NCBI GenBank assembly: GCA_033549065.1
Contig: JAWSUE010000010.1
Coordinates: 1 to 64,000 of the forward strand
Direction of reading: 5' to 3'
Length of the DNA: 64,000 bases
DNA from: Bacillota bacterium
Lineage (GTDB): Bacteria > Bacillota > Dethiobacteria > DTU022
The position numbers and the translations under genes were made by a program. Positions 62,817 to 64,000 of the stretch are shown here, piece by piece. The notes below the pieces were generated by a model. It was not told where the DNA came from. It did no database searches and saw only the letters and a list, made by a program, of their open reading frames with translations. The stretch's first letter is position 1. Each line of letters opens with the position of its first letter.

Positions 62817-62845
62817 TTGACAAGCCCTGGCAGGGTGCTTATAAT
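62817..62845 (+). promoter_or_regulatory. Consensus promoter of T-box leader
   Basis: TTGACA (62817-62822), exactly 17 bp, TATAAT (62840-62845): a perfect sigma-A promoter. Such strength is typical of stable RNA genes and fits the tRNA encoded 190 nt downstream. Predicted start near 62852. Confidence 0.92.
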
Positions 62846-62851
62846 GTTATG

Positions 62852-63178
62852 TGTACTCGAGGTGCCATATATATTCTGTGAAGGGAAGTAGTAAGCGGGA
62901 ATGCTTAATCAGAGAGCCGGGTTAAGGTGAAAACCGGCAGGCAGAACTGCTGAACTCGTCCCGGAGAAACAGCAGTGAAACCAAGTAACTGCTGACGTAA
63001 AGCCGGCGTTAACGGTGATAAGCGGGCAGCAAAACGGGGGGCTGTAGCGCAGTGGGAGCGCGCTTCCTTGGCATGGAAGAGGTCGCGGGTTCGACTCCCG
63101 CCAGCTCCACCATAAGTTTAGCCAATAAGGGTGGTACCGCGGGTATAAATCCGTCCCTTGACCGGGCGGATTTTTTAT
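62852..63178 (+). promoter_or_regulatory. T-box leader of leuS (Leu, CTC)
   Basis: Stem I: AAGTAGTAAG, GA motif AGAGA (62911-62915), a GCCGG/CCGGC apical stem (62916-62938), the specifier CTC (Leu) in GAACTC at 62955-62957, and the closing CGGGA/TCCCG pairing. A hairpin CAGCAGT/ACTGCTG follows (62970-62994). The antiterminator holds the T-box core AAGGGTGGTACCGCG (63127-63141) with the tRNA-binding TGGT (63132-63135). The competing terminator is ATCCGTCCC and GGGCGGAT with a run of T (63149-63178). Uncharged tRNA-Leu would favour readthrough into leuS. A whole tRNA-Ala gene sits between the second hairpin and the antiterminator. Confidence 0.9.
63038..63112 (+). tRNA. tRNA-Ala (GGC), CCA encoded
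   Basis: A complete cloverleaf. Acceptor GGGGCTG with CAGCTCC includes the alanine identity pair G3-U70. D stem GCGC/GCGC, anticodon stem CTTCC/GGAAG with loop TTGGCAT (anticodon GGC at 63070-63072), T stem GCGGG/CCCGC with loop TTCGACT, discriminator A and encoded CCA (63110-63112). U8, A14, GG in the D loop and A58 are all present. It lies inside the leuS T-box leader and would be transcribed from the leader promoter. Confidence 0.96.
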
Positions 63179-63203
63179 TTTCAAAAAGGAAGGAATGATT
63201 TGG

Positions 63204-64000
63204 GTGACAGCTAACTATAATCCAGCCGAAATCGAGGAACGGTGGCAAAATATTTGGGACAGCGAAGACGCCTACAGGTCTGAAATAGATGCAGCCAGGA
63301 CGAAATACTATGTGTTGGAGATGTTTCCCTATCCTTCCGGAAAACTGCATATGGGGCACATGCGAGTTTATTCAATTGGTGATGTCCTGGCCCGGTTTTT
63401 GAGAATGCGCGGTTTGAACGTGATTCATCCCATGGGATGGGATGCTTTTGGCTTACCGGCAGAAAATGCCGCCATTGAGCATAAGGTGAATCCTGCGCAG
63501 TGGACAGCCCAGAATATTGAGCATATGAAAATGCAGCAGAACCGCCTGGGAGTCAGTTATGACTGGAGCAGGGAGGTAAATACTTCCGCCCCTGATTATT
63601 ATCGCTGGTCTCAGTGGCTATTTCTTTTAATGCACAAGAGAAACCTTGCTTATAAAAAGAAAGCAAGCGTAAACTGGTGCAATAATTGCGAAACAGTTTT
63701 GGCCAATGAGCAGGTTGAAAAGGGCTTATGCTGGCGCTGTTCTTCAGTAGTTGAAACCAGGGAACTTGAGCAGTGGTTTTTAAGGATAACCGAATATGCT
63801 GAAAGGCTTTTACGCGATCTTGATCGGCTTGAAGACTGGCCGGAAAGGGTAAAAGTTATGCAGCAAAATTGGATCGGCCGCAGTAAAGGAGCGGAAATTG
63901 TATTTAGGGTTAAAGAATTTCCAGGTGAAGAAATCCGGACGTTTACTACCAGGCCCGATACTCTTTTTGGCGTAACTTACATGGTTTTAGCGCCTGAACA
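63204..64000 (+). CDS. leuS: Leucyl-tRNA synthetase, 5' part
   Basis: Partial: 265 codons before the window ends. Begins (V)[21 protein letters not shown]-type motif [15 protein letters not shown] near 43-57, [16 protein letters not shown], zinc-type CNNC and CWRC, and [13 protein letters not shown] of the editing domain. It is the target of the Leu-specific T-box immediately upstream. Start: GTG 63204 is well spaced from AAGGAAGG; an in-frame ATG at 63195 is the alternative. Confidence 0.95.

Follow-up and report, generated by a model that had tools for sequence, protein, structure and literature searches.

The leuS leader of the Bacillota genome under study is probably a working leucine-responsive T-box whose Stem III loop contains a functional gene for tRNA-Ala(GGC), in most carriers the sole copy of the genome, with one promoter serving both and the tRNA contained in both the terminated and the read-through RNA. 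The leader was analysed within a stretch of 64,000 nucleotides, hereafter the window, and compared with leaders from other genomes (loci designated L, genomes G). The features are collected in Table 1.

Table 1. Parts of the leuS leader and of the embedded tRNA gene, with window positions.
Feature	Position	Strand	Basis
Promoter TTGACA-N17-TATAAT	62817..62845	+	12/12 consensus; no other such match in the window
T-box Stem I, predicted tRNA-Leu sensor	62869..62966	+	RF00230 alignment
Specifier codon CTC (Leu)	62955..62957	+	Motif TGAACTCGTCCCGGAG, conserved across leaders
Stem II and Stem IIA/B region	62970..63015	+	RF00230 alignment
Purine motif RRRNG (AAGCG), 5' of Stem III	63020..63024	+	Sequence; motif as given in available sections of PMC7583486 and PMC7778990
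Stem III 5' strand (GGC)	63025..63027	+	Covariation with the 3' strand in relatives
tRNA-Ala(GGC) gene, CCA encoded, within the Stem III terminal loop	63038..63112	+	ARAGORN; RF00005, 70.2 bits; G3:U70
Stem III 3' strand (GCC)	63121..63123	+	Covariation with the 5' strand in relatives
AA after Stem III, conserved motif	63124..63125	+	Sequence; motif as given in available sections of PMC7583486 and PMC7778990
Antiterminator, T-box bulge UGGU at 63132-63135	63127..63160	+	RF00230 alignment; fold
Intrinsic terminator, 10-pair stem 63147-63173 followed by a T tail	63147..63180	+	Fold and sequence
leuS coding start (about 63195; extends beyond the window)	63195..64000	+	Pfam PF00133 (tRNA-synt_1) and PF13603 (LeuS editing domain)

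Architecture of the leuS leader

The leader lies between a thiF-like gene, encoding a ThiF-family protein, and leuS; further upstream the window contains ribosomal protein genes, obgE, nadD, a gene for an RNA-binding protein, yqeK and rsfS, all names except leuS and ThiF being read from translations. Positions 62869-63161 matched the T-box model RF00230 with 114.7 bits (E 4.7e-26) over all 219 model positions (1-219), the curated cut-off being 93 bits, and the alignment accommodated the tRNA as an insertion where Stem III is located. The same cut-off was exceeded by the leaders L073, L083, L138 and L153, the last of these from a subspecies of the cultured Syntrophomonas wolfei. The specifier CTC (Leu) agrees with the downstream leuS gene, and the leader carries both a UGGN-bulge antiterminator and a competing terminator; folding of 63122-63162 paired AAGGG with CCCUU in the antiterminator. 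Every sequence test places the leader in the T-box family, as a variant of it, and it presumably responds to uncharged tRNA-Leu. None of the remaining 8 T-boxes of the same genome was found to contain a tRNA.

A first-pass annotation had described a leuS T-box containing a complete tRNA-Ala(GGC), to be checked with the T-box and tRNA models, and the RF00230, ARAGORN and RF00005 results confirmed this assignment. The perfect consensus promoter that it had reported was also recovered and would serve both the tRNA and leuS. Its placement of the tRNA at the site of Stem III was correct, whereas the implied replacement of Stem III was not, as the Stem III strands bracket the tRNA; Stem II and Stem IIA/B are present as well.

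The embedded tRNA-Ala(GGC) gene

The insert shows a tRNA fold, the anticodon GGC, the G3:U70 pair and an encoded CCA. G3:U70 was present in 115/115 embedded tRNAs, a set for which the anticodon GGC was a selection criterion, as it was not in the scan of species genomes described below. Among the 33 tRNA genes found in the genome, the GGC anticodon occurred only in the embedded gene, in an incomplete assembly (97.8%) where a second copy might be missed. Across the phylum, 56 of the 65 carrier genomes had no GGC match besides the embedded gene (pattern matches, counted by eye); the other 9 had more than one, and in at least 4 of these the additional matches did not resemble tRNA-Ala when inspected by eye. 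A spare or pseudogene copy was rejected on the basis of these two results.

Of 79 leaders outside the genome's own family, 67 have U directly before the tRNA (position -1). T accounts for 19% of the preceding bases in these leaders, and a U at this place is favourable for bacterial RNase P. The proposal that RNase P processes the leader is therefore plausible from the relatives, while the window itself has G, not U, directly 5' of the tRNA. Taken together, the embedded gene is most likely a working tRNA gene that shares its promoter and terminator with a leucine-responsive T-box; its tRNA would be released and charged, and is presumably essential. The cloverleaf was not recovered by single-sequence folding of the leader, and this fold was not used as evidence. 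An Rfam match to tmRNA, below its cut-off, was discarded as it corresponds to the acceptor and T arm of the tRNA-Ala.

The integrity of the tRNA bears on two other explanations. The insertion lies between sensor and terminator, so that about 90 extra bases could act as a timing element, delaying the polymerase long enough for tRNA-Leu to bind Stem I ahead of terminator synthesis; we consider this improbable, because a plain spacer would not always keep the anticodon GGC, the CCA and G3:U70, nor would it be the only copy. Still less credible is a role of the tRNA as a ligand or decoy in cis, its ACCA end being complementary to the T-box UGGU about 20 nt away. The first-pass annotation had suggested that this pairing might bias the switch. 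However, the tRNA would be 3'-extended until processed, and T-boxes reject such tRNAs, one extra 3' nucleotide being sufficient according to PMC7583486 (Ex1C). Moreover, the anticodon of tRNA-Ala is wrong for CUC, and the embedded tRNA is complete and usually the only copy.

Conservation of Stem III around the tRNA

The T-box motif 5'-RRRNG-StemIII-AA-3' is described as conserved in PMC7583486 and PMC7778990. The window follows this order, with AAGCG (63020), GGC, a spacer, the tRNA, a second spacer, GCC, AA (63124) and then UAAGGGUGGUACCGCG. Outside the own family, pairing over the six initial Stem III positions averaged 5.49/6 (74 leaders); controls in which 5' and 3' strands were exchanged among species, with anchors chosen as freely as in the real leaders, gave 4.14/6 and a maximum of 4.57 (2000 permutations). 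Sliding the 3' strand by 1-3 bases lowered pairing to 2.4-3.8. Compensatory changes affected both strands across relatives, with the pair types GC, AT, CG and TA at position 1, GC, AT, TA and CG at position 2, and TA, CG and GC at position 3.

The covarying strands on either side of the tRNA thus reveal the RRRNG-StemIII-AA arrangement with a paired Stem III, more weakly in the own family, where Stem III is shorter and weaker (mostly 4/6 pairs); in relatives the strands are longer than 63025-63027 and 63121-63123 of the window. Empty sites were also found: leuS T-boxes of the same phylum that contain no tRNA (L251, L254, L256, L262 and others) carry a short hairpin of the usual kind as Stem III, bounded by the same motifs, as in GAGTG-GGCTTTACAAAGGCC-AA of L251. 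Stem III is thus kept, and its terminal loop holds the tRNA.

Distribution of the element

A strict pattern matched in 34 of the 43 genomes of the own family, and in G026 and G030, from another family of the class, the element occurs with a variant motif. Phylum-wide, 65 of 398 genomes matched and a reversed-pattern control gave 0 matches; in Chloroflexota, the phylum of locus L117, matches occurred in 14 of 251 genomes. L081 and L161 were excluded, as they matched the pattern without leuS and without T-box features. A scan for any CCA-bearing tRNA in a T-box, drawn on 84,980 species genomes, returned at least 120 matches. Among the matches listed, about 70 were tRNA-Ala(GGC) in a T-box, each one judged a real T-box held Ala(GGC), and the element was carried by Syntrophomonas, Thermosyntropha, Desulfofundulus and Symbiobacterium as well as by Chloroflexota, Thermomicrobiota, Armatimonadota, Coprothermobacterota and Caldisericota. 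Other tRNAs among the matches listed look like chance, having no T-box.

The possibility of an assembly artefact, a chance insertion or a decayed T-box, which had been raised with the original observation, can practically be set aside. The genome is indeed a 61-contig assembly and decayed leaders do occur in some relatives, but the same join is found in the 34 own-family genomes, in the 65 of the phylum and in the 14 Chloroflexota genomes, the design is conserved across phyla, and both the compensatory changes in Stem III and the full Rfam score speak against artefact or decay.

The specifier was CTC in 87 of the 90 leaders in which it was read by pattern, and it was visible by eye in nearly all others. 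Promoter-like sites were present in 90/108 leaders and terminator-like sites in 97/115. No clear terminator was found in the GC-rich Chloroflexota leaders, so that a route through terminated RNA may not apply there.

The gene following the tRNA-bearing T-box is mostly leuS. In Armatimonadota and Anaerolineae an ilvE-like aminotransferase gene comes next, followed by leuS in most such loci; leuS was not found in the stretch examined at the ilvE-like loci L077 and L142. In some Chloroflexota a GNAT protein is encoded downstream of the T-box, then leuS. In Desulfofundulus and relatives (L086, L147, L107, L172) a gene resembling AMP-binding acyl-CoA ligases, not leuS, follows the Leu T-box.

Several variants were observed. 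In the GC-rich Chloroflexota loci L074, L104, L112, L125, L128, L157 and L181 it is a GNAT acetyltransferase gene that separates the T-box from leuS, and these are possibly translational T-boxes. A further group from at least two families (L084, L131, L148, L151, L189, L206-L213) combines a Leu T-box and the tRNA with an apparent absence of Stem II and Stem IIA/B; only 38-45 nt separate the CTC specifier from the tRNA downstream of it. Natural absence of Stem II is reported for glycine T-boxes in PMC7583486. In the Anaerolineae/Caldilineales loci L077, L129, L141, L142, L143 and L167 a second alanine tRNA, tRNA-Ala(CGC), immediately precedes Stem I, some 230 nt 5' of the embedded tRNA-Ala(GGC). 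Finally, L026 (genome G012) has an intact tRNA and antiterminator and an unrecognisable Stem I at the usual upstream place, which may reflect local decay, rearrangement or an assembly fault.

Evolution of the tRNA-bearing leader

In a LeuS tree, carriers were spread over many distinct lineages of Bacillota and also fell in the Chloroflexota/Armatimonadota part. They were clustered, requiring 12 changes compared with 22 when shuffled; well-supported branches forced at least 5 changes, and many deep forks were weak. Since tRNA, loop and specifier are the same throughout, the data argue for either a single ancient origin with later losses or transfer of the leader. In L241, L242 and L244, relatives within the order, and in the more distant L261, a tRNA-Ala and a terminator lie upstream of leuS and the T-box motif is lost. 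These sites are decayed T-boxes in which the tRNA has been retained, a pattern that would follow if cells require the tRNA but can dispense with the regulation. Empty, occupied and tRNA-only sites thereby make an evolutionary series available.

This series bears on whether the switch involves the tRNA or its maturation. Cleavage by RNase P and at the 3' side might detach Stem I from the antiterminator, with the effect of committing, resetting or stabilising the leuS mRNA; alternatively, the folded tRNA might stack on Stem III and tune the discriminator. Such a role is suggested by the position of the tRNA exactly between the sensor and the decision helix, by the occurrence of the same tRNA at the same site across phyla, and by the indispensability of Stem III for sensing aminoacylation, as stated in PMC7583486. 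We regard it as unlikely nonetheless, as many leuS T-boxes of the same phylum do without the tRNA, relatives lacking the T-box have kept the tRNA, and the spacers on either side of the embedded tRNA differ in length among leaders. The existence of T-boxes without a tRNA and of tRNAs without a T-box indicates that neither part needs the other.

Proposed mechanism

On sequence grounds the comparisons establish the architecture, the conserved Stem III, the Leu specifier, the integrity of the tRNA, its usual single copy and the wide conservation of the element. In the preferred reading, that of a functional tRNA gene nested in a functional leucine T-box, we infer switching by tRNA-Leu and output of tRNA-Ala in both states. 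A single promoter would drive the transcription of tRNA-Ala(GGC) and leuS. Uncharged tRNA-Leu would read CUC in Stem I and pair with UGGU, allowing the antiterminator to form and leuS to be made, and the purine motif of Stem III, still flanking the insertion, would hold the pairing between tRNA-Leu and the antiterminator. With charged tRNA-Leu the terminator would form instead, doubling as the terminator of the tRNA gene. A short terminated RNA would be produced when leucine is plentiful and a long read-through RNA when it is scarce; both would contain tRNA-Ala, which RNase P and 3' trimming could release from either transcript.

Since the tRNA lies upstream of the choice between terminator and antiterminator, it would be present in both RNAs and only leuS would be regulated. 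The expectation of the first-pass annotation that the tRNA is made with or without termination is in line with this order of parts; its further idea of coupled leucine sensing and alanine supply is not supported in the sense of control of the one by the other, because the regulated step is downstream of the tRNA and the shared promoter is the only coupling. Once the tRNA is processed, Stem I would be cut off from the antiterminator; sensing must therefore precede processing. A bolder proposal, which we put forward tentatively and consider unlikely, is that maturation of tRNA-Ala by RNase P is itself a regulatory step: the T-box would be cut in two, tRNA-Leu would be sensed only until the tRNA is released, and riboswitch and tRNA gene would have evolved as a nested unit. 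If this were true, tRNA processing capacity would be coupled with synthetase expression.

Comparison with known systems

The first-pass annotation knew of no T-box of this design, and no description of a tRNA gene inside a T-box was found in the open-access literature searched, which does not prove that none exists. No T-box with a tRNA gene is mentioned in the available parts of a survey of 242 genomes (PMC2494555) and of TBDB (PMC7778990), nor is a tRNA-gene insertion in those of a 2020 review (PMC7583486), which refer only to curious insertions with no assigned function.

The closest known system is the leuS transcriptional T-box (RF00230, CUC), with which the leader shares Stem I with CUC, Stem II, Stem IIA/B, RRRNG-StemIII-AA, the UGGU antiterminator, the terminator and leuS. 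There, however, the Stem III loop is short, whereas here a complete gene for tRNA-Ala(GGC) occupies it. For translational T-boxes, PMC7583486 notes insertions in Stem III or Helix A2, and they likewise place additional sequence in the discriminator domain; here, in contrast, the insert is a tRNA gene and most cases look transcriptional.

A tRNA gene, usually single-copy, resides at the heart of a T-box sensor, in the domain needed for aminoacylation sensing, and is kept there across several phyla. Stem III tolerates a whole folded gene, the terminated T-box RNA, usually regarded as waste, would gain a product, and the timing of RNase P processing relative to the riboswitch decision becomes testable.

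tRNA genes can also be co-transcribed with protein genes, one transcript giving rise to a processed tRNA and an mRNA. The leuS leader resembles these units in that a tRNA, by processing, and an mRNA would derive from one transcript, and it differs from them in that the tRNA interrupts a riboswitch between its sensor and its decision helix, upstream of a regulated terminator.
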